From contig JAHIQT010000091.1 in assembly GCA_018903255.1 (NCBI GenBank), positions 1-36,281 on the forward strand: a stretch of DNA of 36,281 nucleotides, read 5' to 3'. The position numbers were made by a program, and so were the translations under genes. The notes beneath the pieces were generated by a model, which was not told the DNA's origin, did no database searches, and saw only the letters and a list, made by a program, of their open reading frames with translations. This stretch comes from Bacillota bacterium. Its GTDB lineage: Bacteria > Bacillota > Clostridia > Eubacteriales > Eubacteriaceae. Shown here in pieces: positions 15,758-36,085 of this stretch (position 1 is its first letter; each line of letters begins with the position of its first letter).

Positions 15758-18124
15758 TTATTCAAACACCTTTTTGGCAATGCTGGCCCCTTCGCGGGCG
15801 TCTTTGCCGTAATAATCGGCGCCGATGGTTTTGGCATATTCGGGGTTTAATACTGCCCCGCCAACCATGATGGTGGTGGCCGGACAGCCGGCCTTGATTT
15901 CTGTGATGATTTTTTGCATATTTTTAACGGTTGTTGTCATCAGGGCGCTAAGACCCACCAGTTTTATATCTTCTGCCTGAATGGTCGCAATTATCGCTTC
16001 GGCCTTGACATCCTTGCCGAGATCAAGGATTTCGTAACCGTAATTTTCTAAGATAACCTTGAGAATATTCTTGCCAATATCATGGACATCGCCCTCAACC
16101 GTGGCTAAAATAATTTTTCCTTTGGCCACTTGCGCCTGACCATCCTTTAGCATCGTTTCTTTAATCACTTCAAAGGCTTTTTGGGCCGTCTCGGCCGCAA
16201 AAATCAGATGGGGTAAGAAACATTGGCCCGTTTCAAAGGCATCTCCGACGGCATCAAGAGCGGGGACGATCTCGTTGTTGACAATATCCAGGGGTTGTCT
16301 GCTGTTAAGTAGTGTCCGGGTCACTTCGGCCGCCTGATCAGTCAGCCCATCTTCAATGATTTCCTTTAGGCTCAGGGCGGCTTTAGCCGTTTCTGATTTG
16401 GCTTCGCCAAAGCTGCTGTCTTTATAGGCGTTAGCATAAGCAATACACTGGCCATCCAAGCCCCAGAGTGCCCGGAATGCTTTGATGGTGTCCATCATTT
16501 CCTGATCACTGGGGTTGATAATCGGGGTGGTCAGTCCGGCTTCCAGAGCCATGGCTAAAAAGGTTCGATTTAAGAGTTCACGGTTGGGCAGGCCAAAGGA
16601 AATATTAGAAACCCCCAGGACCGTCGGCACCCCCAGCTCAGTGCGAAGCTTTTCCAGGGTTTTGATGGTTTCCCGAACTTCTGCCTGTTGGGCTGAGGCG
16701 GTTAACACCAGGGCGTCAATCAGAATATTTTTTTTACTGATGCCGTGGGACTGGGCAGTTTTGATGATCTTTTCAGCAATCGCAAAACGATCATTAGCCA
16801 GACTGGGAATCCCGCTTTCGTCCATCGTTAGCCCTAGGACTAAGGCCCCGTATTTGTTAGCAATCGGGAAGATCTTATCCATTGATGATTTTTTGCCATT
16901 AACCGAATTAATGATCGCCTTGCCGGGATAGGTCCGCAAGACCGCTTCGATAACTTCCGGATTGGAAGAATCAATCTGCAGCGGACAATCGACTAATCGG
17001 CTGACCGTATCAACCGCCTCCTGCATCATCGCCAGTTCATCAATATCCGGTAACCCGAGATTGATATCCAGAATACTTGCCCCGTCTTTTTTTTGATCGA
17101 CGGCCAATTGGCTTACGACTGAGAGTTGACCCTGCCGTAGCGATGCCTTGAGCACTGGATTGGTGGTGGGATTGATGCATTCGCCAATAATATCAATATC
17201 CTCGCCGAGGATAATCGTTTTGGTGCTGGACGACACTGCTGTAAAACCTTTGTCGGTTACCTTATAAAGCGGCAGATCTTTAGTAGCCTGCTTCATTTTT
17301 TTGATATAGTCTGGCGTAGTGCCACAGCAGCCGCCCAAAATCAAGGCGCCCATTTCAGCAATTTGAACCATATAATCGGTAAACTGATCGATGCTGATGT
17401 CATAGATGGTTTGTCCATCTTTCATCTGCGGCAAGCCGGCATTGGGTTCGACCATCAGCGGTACCGAGGCATAGCGAATCAGATCTTTAATAATCGGCAG
17501 CATCGCATCCGGTCCGGTGGAGCAATTAATGCCGATGGCATCGGCGCCAAGTCCTTCCAGGATGGCAACCACCGTTAAGGCATCACTACCGGTTAGGGTG
17601 CGGCTATTCTCTTCATAGGTCATTGATACAATTACCGGTAAATCCGAGACTTCCTTGGCGGCAATCAGGGCTGCCCGGGCTTCACAGATATCGGTCATCG
17701 TTTCGATGATGATTAAATCCGCTCCGGCTTGATCCCCGGCTTGAATAATTTCCTTGAAATAATCAACGGCTTGGTCAAAGGACACCTCTCCCAGGGCGCC
17801 GATTAGCGTCCCCAGCGGCCCTACATCCAGTGCCGTAAAATCGGGATTCAATGATTTGACATTCTTGACACCAGCCGTAACCAACTGCGCGACCGTATAA
17901 GCACTGCCCTTTAACTTGTAACCATTCACCCCAAAGGTATTGGAAAGAATAATGTTGGCACCGGCATCCATGTATAATTGGTGAATCCCTTTAATTAGTT
18001 CAGGATCGGTCAGGTTTAAGGCCTCCGGAATCGCTCCAATTGATTCCAATTGATGCTGAAGCAGGCTCCCCATTGCCCCATCAAGGTACAGCCGTTTACT
18101 TTTGAGTATTTCTTCTAGTTTCAT
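15758..18124 (-). CDS. metH: Cobalamin-dependent methionine synthase, short form without reactivation domain
   Basis: A 788-residue MetH-type enzyme that methylates homocysteine from methyl-tetrahydrofolate via cobalamin. In order: homocysteine-binding domain (1-285) with zinc ligands Cys201, Cys266 and Cys267 (GINCST, GGCCGTT); pterin domain (about 305-570, starting GEDIDIIGECINPT); B12 cap (about 585-670); and B12-binding domain with EGDVHDIGKN, His681 being the cobalt ligand. The AdoMet-binding reactivation domain found at the C-terminus of the E. coli enzyme (about 1230 residues) is missing, so a separate reductive activator is needed. It is the last gene of the homocysteine operon, 47 bases behind UPF0280, placing it as the final step. 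A corrinoid methyltransferase of another acetogen pathway is less likely because of the complete Hcy domain. Confidence 0.93.
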   Translation of the reverse strand: MKLEEILKSKRLYLDGAMGSLLQHQLESIGAIPEALNLTDPELIKGIHQLYMDAGANIILSNTFGVNGYKLKGSAYTVAQLVTAGVKNVKSLNPDFTALDVGPLGTLIGALGEVSFDQAVDYFKEIIQAGDQAGADLIIIETMTDICEARAALIAAKEVSDLPVIVSMTYEENSRTLTGSDALTVVAILEGLGADAIGINCSTGPDAMLPIIKDLIRYASVPLMVEPNAGLPQMKDGQTIYDISIDQFTDYMVQIAEMGALILGGCCGTTPDYIKKMKQATKDLPLYKVTDKGFTAVSSSTKTIILGEDIDIIGECINPTTNPVLKASLRQGQLSVVSQLAVDQKKDGASILDINLGLPDIDELAMMQEAVDTVSRLVDCPLQIDSSNPEVIEAVLRTYPGKAIINSVNGKKSSMDKIFPIANKYGALVLGLTMDESGIPSLANDRFAIAEKIIKTAQSHGISKKNILIDALVLTASAQQAEVRETIKTLEKLRTELGVPTVLGVSNISFGLPNRELLNRTFLAMALEAGLTTPIINPSDQEMMDTIKAFRALWGLDGQCIAYANAYKDSSFGEAKSETAKAALSLKEIIEDGLTDQAAEVTRTLLNSRQPLDIVNNEIVPALDAVGDAFETGQCFLPHLIFAAETAQKAFEVIKETMLKDGQAQVAKGKIILATVEGDVHDIGKNILKVILENYGYEILDLGKDVKAEAIIATIQAEDIKLVGLSALMTTTVKNMQKIITEIKAGCPATTIMVGGAVLNPEYAKTIGADYYGKDAREGASIAKKVFE

Positions 18125-27140: not shown

Positions 27141-27381
27141 CACAAAATATCATCTAAAAGGATGCTCTTTCTAACAATGCTGTCTCAGTTGACCTGGTTT
27201 TTCACCCCACACTCGCCAGCTGGAAGTTTAGCTCAGTGTTCGCATCACAACTCCTTCTCTCGGTCTACCCGGCTGGACTTACTTCTAAGACGCACTATGA
27301 TCAACAACTCTCTATTGAATTGTCTTACGTGGATCGCTTCGCCTGCATCTGGCATCGACTTTCAACCACAAACCTGAGACA
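27141..27381 (-). ncRNA. raiA motif noncoding RNA (candidate)
   Basis: About 240 bases upstream of hpf with no credible gene but a strong dedicated promoter and a closed fold. The 5' segment GTTGTCTCAG pairs with CTGAGACAGC near the 3' end over ten base pairs (one G-U). The interior is rich in short conserved-looking purine stretches, and a weak hairpin CATC/GATG followed by ATATTTTG may end it. The raiA motif RNA is known as a structured RNA of this size placed just upstream of raiA/hpf in Firmicutes and is linked to sporulation and aggregation in Clostridium. The assignment rests on position, size, promoter and the closing helix; no covariance model was run. 6S RNA, SRP RNA, tmRNA and RNase P do not fit. 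Confidence 0.75.
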
Positions 27382-27387
27382 ACGTCT

Positions 27388-29036: not shown

Positions 29037-30455
29037 TTAGAATCTAAAATCTCGCTTGCCGGAACTTAGCTCGGTTAGATGGGCCGTGGCAATCCCGCGA
29101 ACCTTATCGTTGGGGATCGAAGCCAGTTCCCGGGCAATCGTTTTTTCACCATTTAACTTGGTTTCTGGGGCAGCATAATCTTCTAAATATTCTTTCAGGG
29201 TCATGATCGCGTTGGGCTGACAGCAATTGGCAATCTGGCCCGATTTGACCAGTTGCATAAAGCGGTCGCCGGTGCGGCCTTCCCGGTAACAGGCGGTGCA
29301 GAAGCTGGGAATATGACCCATTTCTAACAGCCAGTTGACAATTTCATCGAGTTTTCTGGTATCATTTAACTCAAACTGAGCTGAGTTTTGATCTTCCGGT
29401 TCAGGGGTATCATAACCGCCGACACTGGTGCTGGAACCACCGCTGATCTGTGAAATCCCCAGTTTTAACACCCGCTCCCGGCAAGCCTGGGATTCCCGGG
29501 TGGAAATGATCATCCCGGTGTAGGGTACCGCAACGCGCAGCACGGTGACAATTTTTTCAAAAATTTCATCAGAAATGGCATTGGAAAAATCATCGGTGTC
29601 AATATCATCAGCTGGGCAGATCCGCGGCACCGAGATGGTATGGGGACCAACCCCCATGGCGGCTTCTAAATGTTCGGCATGCATCAGCATCCCGACAAAA
29701 TCGTAGCTGTACATGTTCAGGCCAAAGAGCACCCCAATCCCAACATCATCAATACCGCCTGCCATGGCGCGATCCATGGCTTCAGTATGCCAGGCATAAT
29801 CACTCTTGGGCCCGCTGGGATGAAGCATTTCGTAATTTTCCTTGTGGTAGGTTTCCTGGAACAAGATATAGGTGCCGATTCCAGCTTCTTTTAGCTGTCG
29901 ATAGTCATCAACCGTAGTGGCCGCAATGTTTACATTGACGCGGCGGATATCACCATTTTTATGTTTGATGCTATAAATGGTTTTAATGCTCTCTAAAATA
30001 TACTCCAGGGGATTATTTTTAGGATCTTCACCCGCTTCCAGAGCCAAACGCTTATGACCCATGTCCTGAAGGGCAATGACCTCTCTGGCGATTTCTTCCT
30101 GGGTCAATTTCTTGCGGCTGATATTTTTATTTTTTAAATGATACGGGCAATAGACACAACCATTGACACAATAATTCGAGAGGTAAAGCGGTGCAAACAT
30201 AACAATGCGATTGCCATAAAACTTATTTTTGATATCCATGGCCAGTTTTACCAAACGGTCATTTTGTTCTTCTAGCTCACAGGCCAGTAAAACCGCCGCC
30301 TCGCGATGGGTCAATCCCTGATAGGTGCCGGCTTTCTCAATAATCTGATTGATCAGGGTGACATTTGTTTTATTTTCTTCCGCATAGGCCAGGGTATCGA
30401 GGATTTCCTGGTCATCAATAAATTCGACTGCTTTTTTTGACATGATATTATACAT
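29037..30455 (-). CDS. hydG: [FeFe]-hydrogenase maturase HydG (tyrosine lyase)
   Basis: A 472-residue radical SAM enzyme that splits tyrosine to give the CO and cyanide ligands of the hydrogenase H-cluster. The SAM cluster motif CVNGCVYC gives Cys96, Cys100 and Cys103. The C-terminal auxiliary cluster motif begins CTACYREGRTGDRFMQL and ends at the CC pair after QIAN, as in HydG and unlike ThiH. The ribosome site AGGAGAG precedes ATG 30455. hydE lies upstream with a 54-base gap, and the TM1266-type regulator before that. The third maturase, HydF, is not in the window. Confidence 0.95.
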   Translation of the reverse strand: MYNIMSKKAVEFIDDQEILDTLAYAEENKTNVTLINQIIEKAGTYQGLTHREAAVLLACELEEQNDRLVKLAMDIKNKFYGNRIVMFAPLYLSNYCVNGCVYCPYHLKNKNISRKKLTQEEIAREVIALQDMGHKRLALEAGEDPKNNPLEYILESIKTIYSIKHKNGDIRRVNVNIAATTVDDYRQLKEAGIGTYILFQETYHKENYEMLHPSGPKSDYAWHTEAMDRAMAGGIDDVGIGVLFGLNMYSYDFVGMLMHAEHLEAAMGVGPHTISVPRICPADDIDTDDFSNAISDEIFEKIVTVLRVAVPYTGMIISTRESQACRERVLKLGISQISGGSSTSVGGYDTPEPEDQNSAQFELNDTRKLDEIVNWLLEMGHIPSFCTACYREGRTGDRFMQLVKSGQIANCCQPNAIMTLKEYLEDYAAPETKLNGEKTIARELASIPNDKVRGIATAHLTELSSGKRDFRF

Positions 30456-30509
30456 TGTTACTCTCCTAAAGTTTTTATTTTGTTCGGCAAAATGCCTTTA
30501 TTTCAAGTT

Positions 30510-31550
30510 CTAATCTTGAGGATAATCGCCCCGGTGGGTTAAAATTTCGTAACCAATACCTTCGATCCGCTTTGTTAGGCAAACCCGGCATTCAGCGGCT
30601 TCATCGCCAGTGCAAATTTTATTATCATAGAGGCTGTAATCTTTTCGCACTGACACTGGCGACAGGTTGGGCATGACCACATTGGCGCCAGCCAGGATTC
30701 CTAGTTCTCGACCCTTGGGATCAATGGTTCCCAGTGCTGTGGTGGCCGGAATCAGCGCTTTAGGCAGCATCAGCCGCAGGATTGAGATAAGCAGCAGGGT
30801 TTCTTCTAGGGTGCCGGCCTTTGCATCCTTATAAGGGGTGTGCTGATGGGGGATAAAGGGTCCAATCCCAATCATCTGAGGGTTTAGTTCTTTGATAAAG
30901 ACCAGGTCCGCGACCAGATTTTCGACCGTCTGATGGGGCGATCCCACCATAAAGCCGGTGCCGACCTGAAATCCGATTTCTTTGAGATCTTGAAGACATG
31001 CTTTTCTATCTTCTAACCGCAGTTGTTTGGGATGGAGTTTCTGATAGTGGTCTTCGGTAGCGGTCTCGTGCCGCAGTAAATAACGGTTGGCACCGGCGGC
31101 AAAAAATGCTTCGTATACAGCTCGGGGTCGCTCCCCGAGTGACAGGGTGATGGCACAGTCATTGTAGCCACTTCTGATGTTACGAATCAGCTCAAGCATC
31201 TGTTCATCGGAAAAATCGGGATCTTCCCCGCCCTGCAGGACAAAGGTGCGAAAGCCTAAGTCGTATCCGATAGCACAGCAATCGAGAATTTCTGACTCAC
31301 TTAAGCGATAGCGATTGGCCTGTTCATTGCCGCAGCGGATGCCACAGTAATAGCAATCATTTTTGCAATAATTGCTGAATTCGATCAGCCCCCGGACATA
31401 AACCCCGTTTCCAAAGGTTTGACCCGCTACTCTCCTGGCCCGGTTGGAAAGATCCGCCCGTAAGTCAGGGGTGTTATTTTCAAGCAACCATTTAAACTCG
31501 TCTCTTTCCAGAAATTGTTCTTTTTCCAGTTTTTCTGTTATTTTATTCAT
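30510..31550 (-). CDS. hydE: [FeFe]-hydrogenase maturase HydE
   Basis: A 346-residue radical SAM enzyme acting in assembly of the H-cluster diiron unit. The SAM motif CKNDCYYC gives Cys62, Cys66 and Cys69, nearly the same numbering as the Thermotoga enzyme. The distinctive stretch LQGGEDP follows, with the substrate barrel after it. The longest frame from 31616 overlaps the preceding gene. ATG 31550 overlaps that gene's end by a few bases (ATGAATAA) and gives the family length, so translation is coupled. It forms an operon with the TM1266-like gene and hydG. Confidence 0.94.
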   Translation of the reverse strand: MNKITEKLEKEQFLERDEFKWLLENNTPDLRADLSNRARRVAGQTFGNGVYVRGLIEFSNYCKNDCYYCGIRCGNEQANRYRLSESEILDCCAIGYDLGFRTFVLQGGEDPDFSDEQMLELIRNIRSGYNDCAITLSLGERPRAVYEAFFAAGANRYLLRHETATEDHYQKLHPKQLRLEDRKACLQDLKEIGFQVGTGFMVGSPHQTVENLVADLVFIKELNPQMIGIGPFIPHQHTPYKDAKAGTLEETLLLISILRLMLPKALIPATTALGTIDPKGRELGILAGANVVMPNLSPVSVRKDYSLYDNKICTGDEAAECRVCLTKRIEGIGYEILTHRGDYPQD

Positions 31551-31821
31551 CGTTTTCATCCACTTCTTCACCCTTCGGCAGTTTTGAATAGACTGTTTTA
31601 ATATTAACGCCGTCAATCATTCCCAGCTTCCCGGACAAGGAGCTGATGATATTGGTCGAAGCATCGACAACGACACTGATTACCGAAACATTTCGCTGAT
31701 GATAGGGGATTCCCATTCGCCCGACGATATGCTCACCGTAATCATGAAGTACCTTATTGAGTTTCTCTACTGCTTCTTTTTTTTCAACGACAATTGCTAT
31801 CAATCCAATTCTCTTTTCCAT
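31543..31821 (-). CDS. TM1266-type iron-only hydrogenase system regulator (ACT-like)
   Basis: A 92-residue ACT/NikR-C-like protein of the TM1266 family, which is commonly encoded with hydE/hydG and is proposed to regulate the hydrogenase system. Typical are MEKRIGLIAIVVEKKEAVEK and the GRMGIPYHQRNVSVISVVVD core. There is no DNA-binding domain, so any regulation must be through another protein or a ligand. The ribosome site GAGGAG is good. It heads the hyd operon; the 84-bp tandem repeats sit in its leader. Confidence 0.88.
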   Translation of the reverse strand: MEKRIGLIAIVVEKKEAVEKLNKVLHDYGEHIVGRMGIPYHQRNVSVISVVVDASTNIISSLSGKLGMIDGVNIKTVYSKLPKGEEVDENDE

Positions 31822-31876: not shown

Positions 31877-32044
31877 CCTCAATTCCGCTCCGCTTCATTT
31901 CGGTCGCGGGCAGTCGCCAACTGCAAGCAAGCTTGCGATTGGCTCGTTGCCTTAACGAAACCTCAATTCCGCTCCGCTCCATTTCGGTCGCGGGCAGTCG
32001 CCAACTGCAAGCAAGCTTGCGATTGGCTCGTTGCCTTAACGCGA
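31877..32044. repeat. Two tandem copies of an 84-bp palindromic repeat (REP-like)
   Basis: Two nearly identical units start with CCTCAATTCCGCTCCGCT at 31877 and 31961. Each carries the core GTCGCGGGCAGTCGCCAAC, then an inverted pair GCAAG...CTTGC nested in GCCAA...TTGGC and GGCA...TGCC, forming one stem-loop. They differ at only a few positions. The same core, with changed but still paired bases, occurs in the MITE-like element at 24295-24482. The minus strand can be read as the peptide LRQRANRKLACSWRLPATE repeated twice, which is a by-product of the repeat. They lie in the leader of the hyd operon. Confidence 0.85.
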
Positions 32045-32394: not shown

Positions 32395-32467
32395 AAAACG
32401 GATCATGCGTTATCGCGATCGGGTTTTTGAAACTTCACAAAAACTTAATCGCAATCGCATGGTCCGT
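32391..32467 (-). terminator. Terminator after the serine operon
   Basis: A long imperfect hairpin, ACGGATCATGCG (32398-32409) against CGCATGGTCCGT (32456-32467) with further pairing inside, followed on the minus strand by eight T. Confidence 0.8.
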
Positions 32468-32479
32468 TACTATTTTTAT

Positions 32480-33724
32480 TTACTCTAAATTATGAATAAA
32501 CAATCCACTTCTTAATTTTGGTTCAAACCAAGTCGATTTTGGCGGCATCAACAGATCTGCATCGGCAATATTGATCAGTTCTTCAATCGATGTCGGATAC
32601 ATCGAAAAAGCCAGTCCCATGTCGTCATTGACGCGGCGCTCGAGTTCTTTTAAGCCCCGGATGCCGCCGACAAAGTCGATCCGTTTATCGGTGCGAATAT
32701 CCCCGATTCCCAGAATTGGTACCAGGATATTGTTTTGCAAAATCGCGACATCGAGTGAATTAACCGGATCGGCGGGATCGTAAACCCCTTCTTTGACGGT
32801 TAGTAGATACCATTTTTTATCGACAAATAAACCAAAGCTGCCTTTTTGAGGCGGTGTCACCGGTTCGGCATCCTTAGGGGTCACATCAAATTCTACTGAC
32901 AGTGCTTTTAAAAACTCATCAACACTGAGACCATTAAGATCTTTGACCACCCGGTTGTAATCCATGATATACAGCTGCTCATCGGGAAATAAGACCGAAA
33001 GGAAATAGTTGAATTCCTCTGTACCGGTAAAATCCGGGTTTGCTTCACGACGCATCAGACCAACCTTAACCGCCGAAGCTGAGCGGTGATGACCATCGGC
33101 AATATACAAGCTTTCAACCTGACCAAATTTTTCAACTAAGCCGTTAATTACAGCCTCATCGTCAACAACCCAGGCGCGATGGGTAATCCCATCATCTGCT
33201 ACAAAATCATAAATCGGAGCCTGCTCTTTTTGCCAGCTTGCCACTATCTCATTGATGGTCTCTTGCGCCCGGTAGGTCATAAAAATCGGTCCGGTATTGG
33301 CATTGCAGGCGTCGACATGCTTAATCCGGTCTTCTTCTTTATCGGCGCGTGTCAGCTCATGTTTTTTAATGGTATTATCGAGATACTCGTCAATCGCGGT
33401 ACAAACAACCAGCCCGACCTGGCTGCGGCCATCCATGATCAATTCGTAAATGTATAAACAGTCTTTGGTATCCTGAGTCAAGGCTTTCCGATGAAACAAT
33501 TTTTCCAGGTTTTTTCTGGCGGTTTCATAGACAAAGGGATCGTTGATTTTAATTCTTTCGTCCAGGGTCGTTTCCGGCCGGTCGACCCGTAAAAAAGAAT
33601 CCAGTTTTCCCCGCGTTGCGATTGCAGCTTCTTCCCGGTTATAGACATCATAGGGCAGGGCTGCAACATCCTGAGCTTTTTCAGGAAAGGGACGAACCGC
33701 TTTAAAGGGTTTAATAGTTGCCAT
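32480..33724 (-). CDS. DUF1015 family protein in serine biosynthesis operon
   Basis: A 414-residue soluble protein of the DUF1015 family (starts MATIKPFKAVRPFPEKAQDV). Conserved-looking parts are LPYDVYNREEA (about 23-33), KHELTRADKEEDRIKH (121-136) and YIADGHHRSASA (207-218). The D-G-H-H-R motif resembles that of ParB/Srx-fold free-serine kinases (SerK, SbnI). The enzymatic function of DUF1015 is not established to my knowledge. It follows serC and serA on the same strand, while a standard phosphoserine phosphatase gene is absent, so a role in phosphoserine turnover is a reasonable inference. AGGAGG lies seven bases before the ATG. A hairpin separates it from serA and may tune its expression. 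Confidence 0.85.
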   Translation of the reverse strand: MATIKPFKAVRPFPEKAQDVAALPYDVYNREEAAIATRGKLDSFLRVDRPETTLDERIKINDPFVYETARKNLEKLFHRKALTQDTKDCLYIYELIMDGRSQVGLVVCTAIDEYLDNTIKKHELTRADKEEDRIKHVDACNANTGPIFMTYRAQETINEIVASWQKEQAPIYDFVADDGITHRAWVVDDEAVINGLVEKFGQVESLYIADGHHRSASAVKVGLMRREANPDFTGTEEFNYFLSVLFPDEQLYIMDYNRVVKDLNGLSVDEFLKALSVEFDVTPKDAEPVTPPQKGSFGLFVDKKWYLLTVKEGVYDPADPVNSLDVAILQNNILVPILGIGDIRTDKRIDFVGGIRGLKELERRVNDDMGLAFSMYPTSIEELINIADADLLMPPKSTWFEPKLRSGLFIHNLE

Positions 33725-33746
33725 TTTTTTCCTCCTGTTTTTAAAT

Positions 33747-33783
33747 AAAGAAGTGGCTTCAGCTTAAGGAAGACCACTTCTTT
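33747..33783 (-). terminator. Intra-operon hairpin between serA and DUF1015
   Basis: AAAGAAGTGG / CCACTTCTTT with an inner CTTC/GAAG pairing; on the minus strand it is followed by ATTTAAAAAC, a weak T tract. It is probably a partial terminator or processing site. Confidence 0.6.
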
Positions 33784-33798
33784 GTCAAAATTTTGTTC

Positions 33799-34968
33799 TT
33801 ATTTTAGAATCCGTACCCGAGCGACGCCTTCAATCGCTTCTAAAGCGGTCTTAACCTCTTCACCAACATTGCTGTCCACGTCAATAATGGTATAAGCCCA
33901 AGCACCTCGGTGTTTGTTAGTCATATCCGAAATATTGATATCATGATCGCCAAGTACCTTAGTAATTTGACCCAGCATGTTCTTGACATTGGCATGGTTC
34001 ACGGTTAATCGGTTTACTGCTTCGCAAACTCCCATATTGCAATCTGGATAGTTTACAGAATTGATAATATTACCGTTTTCTAAATATTCTTTTAAAGAAT
34101 AGATAGCCATTTCAGCGCAGTTTTCTTCACTTTCCGGGGTTGAAGCGCCTAAATGCGGAATGTTGATAACATTTTTCATTTTCAGCAAGCGTTCATTGGG
34201 GAAATCAGTTACATAGGTTGCAACGGTATCCGCTTCAATGGCATTTTCCAAGGCATCGTAATTAACCAGTCCACCCCGGGCAAAGTTAAGCAGTCGCAGC
34301 CCTTTTTTGGTGTCTTTAAATAAATTGGCATCAACATAATCTTTTGTTTCATCCATATAAGGAATATGTAGTGAAATATAATCACAGTTTTTAAAGATTT
34401 CTTCTTTGCTGACGGCACGTCTAACTTTTCGGCTTAATCCCCAGGCATTGTCAATTGAAATAAAGGGATCAAATCCATAAACCTTCATTCCAAAATCGAC
34501 TGCCATATTGGCAACCAGGACGCCGATGGCACCTAAGCCGATCACACCCATTTTTTTGCCATATAGTTCCGGGCCGCCAAAAGCACCCTTGCCCTTTTCA
34601 ACCAGAGCAGGGACTTCATCGCCTTTGTCAACCAGGGTGCCTGACCAGGCAATCCCGTCGATCACCTTACGTGAAGAGATCAGCATCCCAGCGATCACCA
34701 GTTCTTTTACTGCATTGGCATTGGCACCAGGAGAGTTGCAGACCACGATTCCCTGTTCTGAACATTTTTCGAGGGGAATATTGTTGACCCCAGCGCCGGC
34801 TCGACCGACAAATTTTACCGACTCCGGAATATCCATATCATGCATTTGAAAGCTTCGTAGGAGAAGCGCATCCGGATTTTCCGGATGATCTAAAACCGTA
34901 TAATTCTCACTTAATATTTTTAACCCTTTTTTTGAAATATTATTCAGGGTCTGTACTTTATAATTCAC
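33799..34968 (-). CDS. serA: D-3-phosphoglycerate dehydrogenase
   Basis: A 389-residue NAD-dependent enzyme that oxidises 3-phosphoglycerate to 3-phosphohydroxypyruvate, the first step of serine synthesis. Nucleotide-binding GLGAIG is at 144-149. Catalytic residues lie in NFARGGLVNYD (Arg) and IPHLGAST (His). A C-terminal ACT domain covers about 318-389 (VNHANVKNMLGQITKVLGDH) and may give serine feedback. The frame opens at 35034, inside serC. GTG 34968 has AAAGGG eight bases upstream and gives the normal N-terminus MNYKVQTLNNISKKGL. It lies 28 bases behind serC. Confidence 0.95.
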   Translation of the reverse strand: MNYKVQTLNNISKKGLKILSENYTVLDHPENPDALLLRSFQMHDMDIPESVKFVGRAGAGVNNIPLEKCSEQGIVVCNSPGANANAVKELVIAGMLISSRKVIDGIAWSGTLVDKGDEVPALVEKGKGAFGGPELYGKKMGVIGLGAIGVLVANMAVDFGMKVYGFDPFISIDNAWGLSRKVRRAVSKEEIFKNCDYISLHIPYMDETKDYVDANLFKDTKKGLRLLNFARGGLVNYDALENAIEADTVATYVTDFPNERLLKMKNVINIPHLGASTPESEENCAEMAIYSLKEYLENGNIINSVNYPDCNMGVCEAVNRLTVNHANVKNMLGQITKVLGDHDINISDMTNKHRGAWAYTIIDVDSNVGEEVKTALEAIEGVARVRILK

Positions 34969-34988
34969 AATCGTTTCCCTTTCTTCAC

Positions 34989-35008
34989 GAAAACGCCTAG
35001 GCGTTTTC
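34989..35008. repeat. 20-bp perfect palindrome over the serC stop codon
   Basis: GAAAACGCCTAGGCGTTTTC reads the same on both strands and spans the serC TAG stop, just before the serA ribosome site. As RNA its centre would need to open into a loop. It could stabilise or process the serC-serA transcript. Confidence 0.5.
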
Positions 35009-36085
35009 TTTTTCAAACTTCTGCATAAAATCAATCAGGGTATCAATCCCTGCCATTGGCATGGCATTGTAAATGCTTGCCCGCATTCCGCCAACGCTGC
35101 GATGACCCTTCAGATTTTCCATTCCAGCTTTTTTGCTTTCTTTAACGAATAGCGCATCTAATTCGTCTGATCCGGTGATAAAAGGTACGTTCATTAGTGA
35201 ACGGTCTTCTGCTACCACAGTTCCTTTATAAAGCTTGCTGTTGTCAATAAAGTCATAGAGCTTTTGAGCTTTTTCTTTATTGACTGCTTCCATTCCGGCA
35301 ACACCACCATTGGCTTTAACCCATTCAAAAACCAGCTTGCAAATATAAATGCTATAGCATGGTGGGGTATTATAGCAGGAATCGTTATCGACGTGGGTTT
35401 TGTAATCCAGCATGGTAGGGGTAAAATCTTTGGCATGACCGAGTAAGTCTTTACGGATAATCACCGCGGTGACACCGGCCGGCCCCATGTTTTTCTGAGC
35501 GCCTGCATAAATCAAGCCAAATTTTTTAACATCATACACTTCGGATAAGATATTAGAGGACATGTCCCCAACTAATGGTACATTTCCCGTATCGGGAATA
35601 TTTTCTGGTTTAAATCGCGTTCCGTAAATGGTGTTATTAACGCAAATATGGAAGAAATCAGCATCGGGTGTAAAATCCTTGGGATCCACTTTCGGGATGT
35701 AGGAAAAGGTTTTATCCTGGGATGATGCAATAACCTTTGCTTCTCCATATCGAGCTGACTCTTGATAAGCCTTTTTTGCCCAAGAGCCGGTAATCATAAA
35801 ATCGGCCTTATTGGTTTTTGAAAAAAGATTGAGTGGTACCATGGCAAACTGAGTTGATGCGCCACCTTGTAAAAACAGGATCTCATAATTATCTGGGACA
35901 TTCATCAATTCTCGGTAAAGACTTTTTGCCGATTGTAAAATATCATCAAAGTAGGATGATCGATGACTCATCTCCATCACGGACATGCCTGCATCTCCAT
36001 AGGATACCATTTCAGACCCAGCTTTTTCGAGGACTTCGAGTGGTAAACAAGATGGTCCAGCTGAAAAATTATAAACTCTTTTCAC
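34997..36085 (-). CDS. serC: Phosphoserine aminotransferase
   Basis: A 362-residue PLP enzyme that converts 3-phosphohydroxypyruvate and glutamate to O-phosphoserine. Typical are the start VYNFSAGPSCLP, the phosphate/PLP contact GGASTQF (74-80), and the PLP lysine Lys198 in AGAQKNMGPAG, the same number as in E. coli SerC. It starts at GTG 36085 behind AAGGAGGAAATT. It is the first gene of serC-serA-DUF1015 and has a sigma-A promoter about 70 bases upstream. Confidence 0.96.
   Translation of the reverse strand: MKRVYNFSAGPSCLPLEVLEKAGSEMVSYGDAGMSVMEMSHRSSYFDDILQSAKSLYRELMNVPDNYEILFLQGGASTQFAMVPLNLFSKTNKADFMITGSWAKKAYQESARYGEAKVIASSQDKTFSYIPKVDPKDFTPDADFFHICVNNTIYGTRFKPENIPDTGNVPLVGDMSSNILSEVYDVKKFGLIYAGAQKNMGPAGVTAVIIRKDLLGHAKDFTPTMLDYKTHVDNDSCYNTPPCYSIYICKLVFEWVKANGGVAGMEAVNKEKAQKLYDFIDNSKLYKGTVVAEDRSLMNVPFITGSDELDALFVKESKKAGMENLKGHRSVGGMRASIYNAMPMAGIDTLIDFMQKFEKENA

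Follow-up and report, generated by a model that had tools for sequence, protein, structure and literature searches.

A DUF1015 protein of predicted SerK/SbnI fold, encoded with SerC and SerA, as a candidate for the last enzyme of serine synthesis

Many sequenced bacteria have no known gene for the step that ends serine synthesis, from O-phosphoserine to serine. A gut survey counts 450 genomes, of diverse Firmicutes, that have SerA and SerC and none of four SerB types (PMC9026213); GapMind reports gaps at the phosphoserine phosphatase step for Desulfovibrio vulgaris and also for Clostridium perfringens (PMC7311316), and missing phosphoserine phosphatases are described elsewhere as well (PMC5764234). 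Which protein takes this step is the question raised by contig JAHIQT010000091.1 of a Bacillota bacterium (Clostridia; Eubacteriales; Eubacteriaceae; assembly GCA_018903255.1), analysed here over its whole length of 36,281 nt, hereafter the window. Its minus strand carries serC, serA and a DUF1015 gene in that order. An earlier note, made from the letters alone, had pointed out this order, which the coordinates of the open reading frames (ORFs) bear out, and had suggested that DUF1015 might be the missing enzyme, a kinase working in reverse with ADP, or a regulator of phosphoserine level. We lean towards the first of these. The DUF1015 protein belongs to a subfamily, A1, marked by the C-terminal motif PPKSTWFEPK, and A1 proteins are candidates for the enzyme that completes serine synthesis where SerB is missing, probably converting O-phosphoserine to serine by hydrolysis. 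This assignment rests on gene linkage, predicted fold, conserved motifs, the absence of SerB alongside A1 at the cut-off of model TIGR00338, and a serine T-box in four relatives.

The DUF1015 gene (32480-33724, minus strand) encodes 414 aa, of which residues 4-326 match Pfam PF06245 at 380.7 bits (E 6e-114; gathering cut-off 25.8 bits). DUF1015 was the only Pfam family matched at E <= 1: at that level the protein had no match to HAD or histidine-phosphatase families, nor to ParB_N or SerK_C, whereas SerK, the ADP-dependent free serine kinase of Thermococcus kodakarensis (PDB 5x0b), matches both of the latter. No NCBIfam family was matched at E <= 0.001. A sequence search of the PDB also gave nothing relevant, so that the relation to SerK is visible only by comparison of folds and profiles. 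An AlphaFold2 model was built from a 79-row alignment (alignment A2) of the window's protein with those of 78 of the 80 named A1 loci, the partial L116 and L130 being left out; it had a mean pLDDT of 96.3 and a pTM of 0.91. Foldseek against the PDB with this model returned nine matches at E <= 0.001 (3e-8 to 2e-5), all of them SerK or SbnI; the tenth was an elongation factor (E 0.0098, probability 0.11). VIA alignment of the model with the nine chains gave Z 11.4-13.1 over 209-223 residues at an rmsd of 4.0-5.8 Å, the SbnI structures (PDB 5uje, 5ujd, 6nr6) accounting for Z 11.4-12.3 over 212-213 residues. One of the chains counted as SerK, 1vk1, is its Pyrococcus homologue, 88% identical.

In seven of the nine alignments the match begins at model residue 88-103, ends at 414 and spans SerK almost completely (residues 8-239). 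DUF1015 would therefore consist of a SerK-like part preceded by about 88 extra N-terminal residues, and the rmsd suggests that domain angles or details differ from those of SerK and SbnI. With ParB CTPases the protein shares the GxxR motif and, it appears, the small ParB-like subdomain; the structural match to a ParB-N domain was weak and partial (VIA Z 3.5 over 82 residues). Comparison by hhalign of 173 DUF1015 sequences against SerK gave E 5.9e-7 and a probability of 92, and runs with fewer sequences agreed; one A1 relative (L120) had a sub-threshold ParBc_2 match (E 0.063). On the predicted structure, DUF1015 branches off distantly within the SerK/SbnI fold and is outside that family by Pfam. 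The kinship with SerK and SbnI that the earlier note had read from a motif, and for which it had proposed a structural comparison, thus extends to the whole fold and to the sequence profile.

That motif, D210-G-H-H-R214 (33083-33097, minus), can be read directly in the translation. It contains the ParB-fold P motif GxxR and is paired by hhalign with VDGHHR of SerK (D69-R73). It is invariant in all 173 aligned DUF1015 proteins and is therefore no chance occurrence; it is also invariant in the 79-row alignment, whose loci were found partly by means of the motif. Beyond the Pfam match, hhalign pairs PPKST with SPKTT of SerK, making K396-S-T398 (32531-32539, minus) the counterpart of SerK K221-T-T; K396 and T398 are present in 171 of the 173 sequences (the other two have gaps there) and R258 in 172. 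H122-E123 (33356-33361, minus), invariant in 173/173, was left unaligned by hhalign. We infer that it corresponds to H29-E30 of SerK (KPH-E30 in the PDB sequence), because it is placed between a strand and the helix that follows, at about the offset implied by the structural ranges and in the same motif order. PDB titles record E30A and E30Q mutants of SerK crystallized with phosphoserine and AMP. The two proteins differ at the preceding residue: SerK has proline (P28), as have 49 of 55 proteins of subfamily A2 (C-terminal motif PQKST), whereas the window's protein has K121, and all 95 A1 proteins compared (33 from the window's class and 62 from a second phylum) have K or R.

Is the association with serine genes a property of the subfamily? 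A SerA-like gene adjoins DUF1015 in 26 of the 30 best loci of the class, the window's included, and these neighbours fall into two dissimilar SerA types: against the SerA of the window, one scores about 350-870 bits and the other 78-104. Within 3.5 kb and on the same strand, serA or serC was found in 41 of the 80 named A1 loci; serA is upstream in 38 of them, L106 has serC only, and in L091 and L127 the gene is downstream. The second phylum (that of genome G200, probably Bacteroidota) is represented by 148 genomes, of which 131 have DUF1015. There, serA or serC lies within flanks of about 4 kb, on either strand, in 58 of the 62 A1 genomes and in none of the 48 A2 genomes. A published instance comes from two Porphyromonas species, in which DUF1015 has serC and the gene of an NAD(P)-binding protein as neighbours (PMC11316588). 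In the window's own phylum, DUF1015 occurs in 26 of 36 genomes with the SerC1 type and in 34 of 83 without it (p 0.0025), an association given little weight because other SerC types exist.

If A1 proteins stand in for SerB, genomes that carry them should do without it. SerB was scored with TIGR00338 at its cut-off, which was exceeded in 7 of 14 control genomes. The window's genome (G000, 83% complete) gave a best match of E 1e-5 and none over the cut-off, nor was there one in G079 or G159, two single-contig genomes of the same genus with a listed completeness of 100%. The cut-off was passed in 0/196 genomes of the window's class, in 0/119 of its phylum and in 0/22 genomes, of unstated completeness, from which named A1 loci come; nine of the 22 belong to records not titled as Firmicutes or Clostridia, and the titles in the set include Gemmatimonadetes, Cloacimonadota, Ignavibacteriae, Phycisphaeraceae, Elusimicrobiales and WOR-3. 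The functional SerB elsewhere in the genome that the earlier note had named as counter-evidence was thus not found, at this cut-off, in the 83%-complete genome or its relatives. DUF1015 of any type was present in 160 of the 196 genomes of the class and 60 of the 119 of the phylum, and the control Thermotoga maritima likewise has DUF1015 and no SerB over the cut-off.

The G200 phylum, in which 41 of the 148 genomes have SerB over the cut-off, allowed the subfamilies to be compared. The split by C-terminal motif arose from 40 loci and was then extended to the full set of 131, of which those 40 are part. SerB was absent from all 62 A1 genomes, two of which had weak HAD matches, and present in 35 of the 48 A2 genomes. 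It was found in four of ten genomes with the type A1c (two serA/serC-linked), in none of 11 with unclassified DUF1015 (four linked) and in two of the 17 without DUF1015. Comparison of A1 with the other 86 genomes gave a Fisher p of 1e-12, a test that treats related genomes as independent and is not counted as proof. RecA from 70 of the 148 genomes gave a tree of 69, G340 being without a RecA picked by pattern; SerB is present in 23 of the 69, A1 in 18 and both in none, at six changes per trait. G460 had no RecA match. We read the mutual exclusion of SerB and A1 as real and of modest statistical weight.

The direction of the reaction is suggested by regulatory leaders. An Rfam scan of 42 loci, with flanks limited to 1.5 kb in 20 of them, placed a T-box before the operon in three: L061 and L066, where the genes that follow are aminotransferase-serA-DUF1015, and L062, where they are serA-DUF1015. 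A pattern search of 122 loci added L088, for a total of four, together with second T-box-like motifs in L061 and L066. In a T-box the specifier codon is found at the base of stem I, directly followed by a purine; by this rule and the Rfam alignment, all four leaders have UCC (Ser). If uncharged serine tRNA turns an operon on, serine should be what the operon makes, which argues for the direction from phosphoserine to serine. The T-box of L042 (1794-2020, minus) is not ahead of the DUF1015 gene and was left out of the count, and none was found in the 196 nt available upstream of serC in the window. No glycine riboswitch was detected in the window or the 42 scanned loci; such riboswitches have been reported before COG4198 genes in metagenomes (PMC2211319). 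Neighbourhood, absence of SerB alongside A1 and serine T-boxes together support the proposal that DUF1015 is the missing last enzyme.

In the mechanism that we propose, the A1 protein would bind phosphoserine as SerK does and would act on the serine/O-phosphoserine pair to which SerA and SerC lead. E123 would be the general acid/base, DGHHR and K396/T398 would hold the phosphate, and the reaction would run towards serine. The likeliest acceptor of the phosphate is water rather than a nucleotide, which would make the enzyme a phosphatase. Hydrolysis of a phosphomonoester yields about -10 to -13 kJ/mol and that of ATP about -31 kJ/mol; by these textbook values, transfer from phosphoserine to ADP to give serine and ATP would cost about +20 kJ/mol and need a phosphoserine:serine ratio of thousands. 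The reverse kinase of the earlier note is thermodynamically unfavourable for this reason, and was rejected. Pyrophosphate formation with inorganic phosphate as acceptor is energetically possible, and it is conceivable, if quite improbable, that A1 proteins are a new class of phosphoserine-consuming enzyme on the ParB/SerK fold which passes phosphate from O-phosphoserine to inorganic phosphate or some other acceptor, so that many anaerobes would save energy while completing serine synthesis. The hydrolysis proposed is the reaction of SerB (TIGR00338, HAD) and of SerB2-SerB4 (PMC9026213), families unrelated to DUF1015.

Several observations, some of them taken up with the alternatives below, weigh against this assignment. 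The characterized members of the fold are kinases that make phosphoserine. DUF1015 and SerB occur together in the controls Bacteroides and Methanosarcina, and in the G200 phylum DUF1015 as a whole is found in 39 of the 41 SerB genomes and in 92 of the other 107 (p 0.15). Before division of the family by C-terminal motif, this lack of anticorrelation was evidence against the idea, and the A1/A2 split resolves the co-occurrence in part; A2 nevertheless shares the motifs and coexists with SerB. On the RecA tree, simulation of independent traits gave zero overlap in 9 of 305 runs (those of 6000 that met the count condition), and a Pagel-type likelihood-ratio test of SerB against A1 was not significant (p 0.16), so that the tree-aware tests of the exclusion are weak. 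In a third phylum (that of genome G201, probably Planctomycetota), 18 of 156 genomes are A1-like (at least 300 bits with the 79-row alignment) and 7 have SerB; the overlap of 0/18 (p = 1) is uninformative, because so few have SerB; with weak HAD matches included, the figures are one of the 18 and 44 of the other 138 (p 0.024). T-boxes precede few of the loci searched. In 39 of the 80 named A1 loci, some shortened by contig ends, no serA or serC is nearby; among 36 of these no recurrent partner was found, the commonest neighbouring family occurring in six. Finally, a stem-loop between serA and DUF1015 in the window (described below) could limit co-transcription of DUF1015.

The alternative that survives best, doubtful in our estimate, is that A1 proteins are serine kinases working in the direction of SerK and SbnI, with SerC and SerA running backwards to feed serine carbon to 3-phosphoglycerate, or with phosphoserine passing to cysteine synthesis. 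Fold, motifs and GxxR are shared with measured serine kinases, and in three Desulfurococcales species serK lies near serA-like and aminotransferase genes; serine assimilation is the reading that the SerK authors give for archaea (PMC5120207). Serine T-boxes before the operon in four relatives argue otherwise, since they imply induction on serine shortage, and with no SerB over the cut-off alongside A1 a kinase would leave synthesis without its last step. In A. woodii the serine pathway is up on fructose as compared with H2+CO2, and the genes concerned include one called phosphoserine phosphatase, which the excerpt does not name (PMC8407422). The linkage of A1 to serA and serC without SerB suggests a direction opposite to that of SerK. 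SbnI differs in setting also, serving synthesis of the siderophore staphyloferrin B, whereas A1 proteins sit in serine operons.

It is unlikely that A1 proteins act instead on a related phosphorylated amino or hydroxy acid, phosphoserine being dephosphorylated by an unrecognized HAD or histidine phosphatase. Promiscuous phosphatases are common; sub-threshold HAD matches, which could hide another phosphatase, are present in 195 of the 196 class genomes, in a search limited to the HAD type, and the A1 loci away from serA and serC fit such a role. The tight linkage of A1 to these genes in the G200 phylum speaks for phosphoserine, as do the specificity of SerK for free serine (PMC5120207) and the phosphoserine made by SbnI. 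Very unlikely, finally, is a non-catalytic phosphoserine-binding regulator or SerA/SerC assembly partner: ParB-fold proteins can be nucleotide switches (PMC12704722), but the proposed catalytic H122, E123 and DGHHR are invariant, which would be unusual without catalysis, linkage holds across unlike SerA types, and nothing positive was found for the regulator of phosphoserine level suggested in the earlier note.

The other branches of the family deserve mention. A2 proteins (L175-L188, L192 and L194 in the G200 phylum; L038, L039, L041, L042, L045, L046 and L048 in the window's class) retain the motifs of SerK and, in most cases, its proline ahead of H-E, and may be true serine kinases or act elsewhere; in L042, serA-serC adjoins an A2 gene in convergent orientation. 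A second, divergent subfamily in the window's class (L049-L056, for example L049:4950-6308, plus strand), two checked members of which exceed the Pfam cut-off, replaces the HE-T of the A types by TEGT or TEKT, their ADGHHR by GDGNHS and their P-KST-F by LPRKTFSMG; it is of the same family, with an altered active site. Some genomes carry two DUF1015 matches.

Within the window, serC (34997-36085, minus) encodes a phosphoserine aminotransferase of 362 aa (NCBIfam NF003764, 545 bits, cut-off 253; TIGR01364, 505 bits, cut-off 443.6). The serA-like gene (33799-34968, minus; 389 aa) encodes a D-3-phosphoglycerate dehydrogenase with a C-terminal ACT-like region; it matches Pfam 2-Hacid_dh_C, while its ACT match is weak and sub-threshold and its score of 232 bits against the phosphoglycerate dehydrogenase model TIGR01327 is below the cut-off of 454. 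Its start is likely to be the GTG at 34968, preferred over the listed TTG at 35034 because the latter would make the gene overlap serC. A gap of 28 nt separates serC from serA and one of 74 nt serA from DUF1015. The second gap (33725-33798, minus) holds a stem-loop with arms AAAGAAGUGG/CCACUUCUUU (-18.8 kcal/mol, z -2.8), with similar stems and changed loop sequence in two loci of the same genus (L025 and L018); it is a possible attenuator or processing site. A strong stem-loop followed by a T run lies 3' of DUF1015 (32395-32479, minus; -34.3 kcal/mol, z -7.4) and is likely to be the operon end. A simple terminator scan listed neither structure among its terminator-like sites, the 3' one being missed because its loop exceeds the limit of the scan. 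From the positions of the two stem-loops, serC, serA and DUF1015 appear to form a single unit that DUF1015 closes, with read-through into this last gene perhaps reduced. On the side of the operon that is visible, no phosphoserine phosphatase gene lies beside serC and serA, as the earlier note had stated; on the other the claim reaches only to the end of the contig, 196 nt upstream of serC.

The intergenic region that separates DUF1015 from the hydrogenase-maturation genes holds two identical 61-base direct repeats (31897-31957 and 31981-32041, minus). HydG, HydE and a TM1266-family putative hydrogenase regulator follow in a row (29037-31821, minus), so that [FeFe]-hydrogenase maturation adjoins the serine operon. 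The window also contains a raiA RNA, a structured RNA (RF03072, 175 bits; 27180-27382, minus), and a MetH-like protein of 788 aa (15758-18124, minus) that matches its model below the cut-off and covers only positions 32-838 of 1182, thus apparently lacking the C-terminal reactivation domain.

In the full-text literature, with preprints outside its scope and few subscription papers covered, no function was found for DUF1015/COG4198, the excerpts of PMC11316588 and PMC2211319 giving none, and no paper was found under the names PF06245, IPR008323, PIRSF033563 or UCP033563. A 'DU1015' fusion is among 50 ParB-fold proteins selected for nucleotide binding, with no binding result named for it in the excerpt (PMC12704722). 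If the assignment proposed here is true, DUF1015, a family of unknown function whose A1 type is carried by 62 of the 148 genomes of the G200 phylum, would gain a role, predictions of auxotrophy would change, and a kinase fold would be shown to serve the opposite direction.

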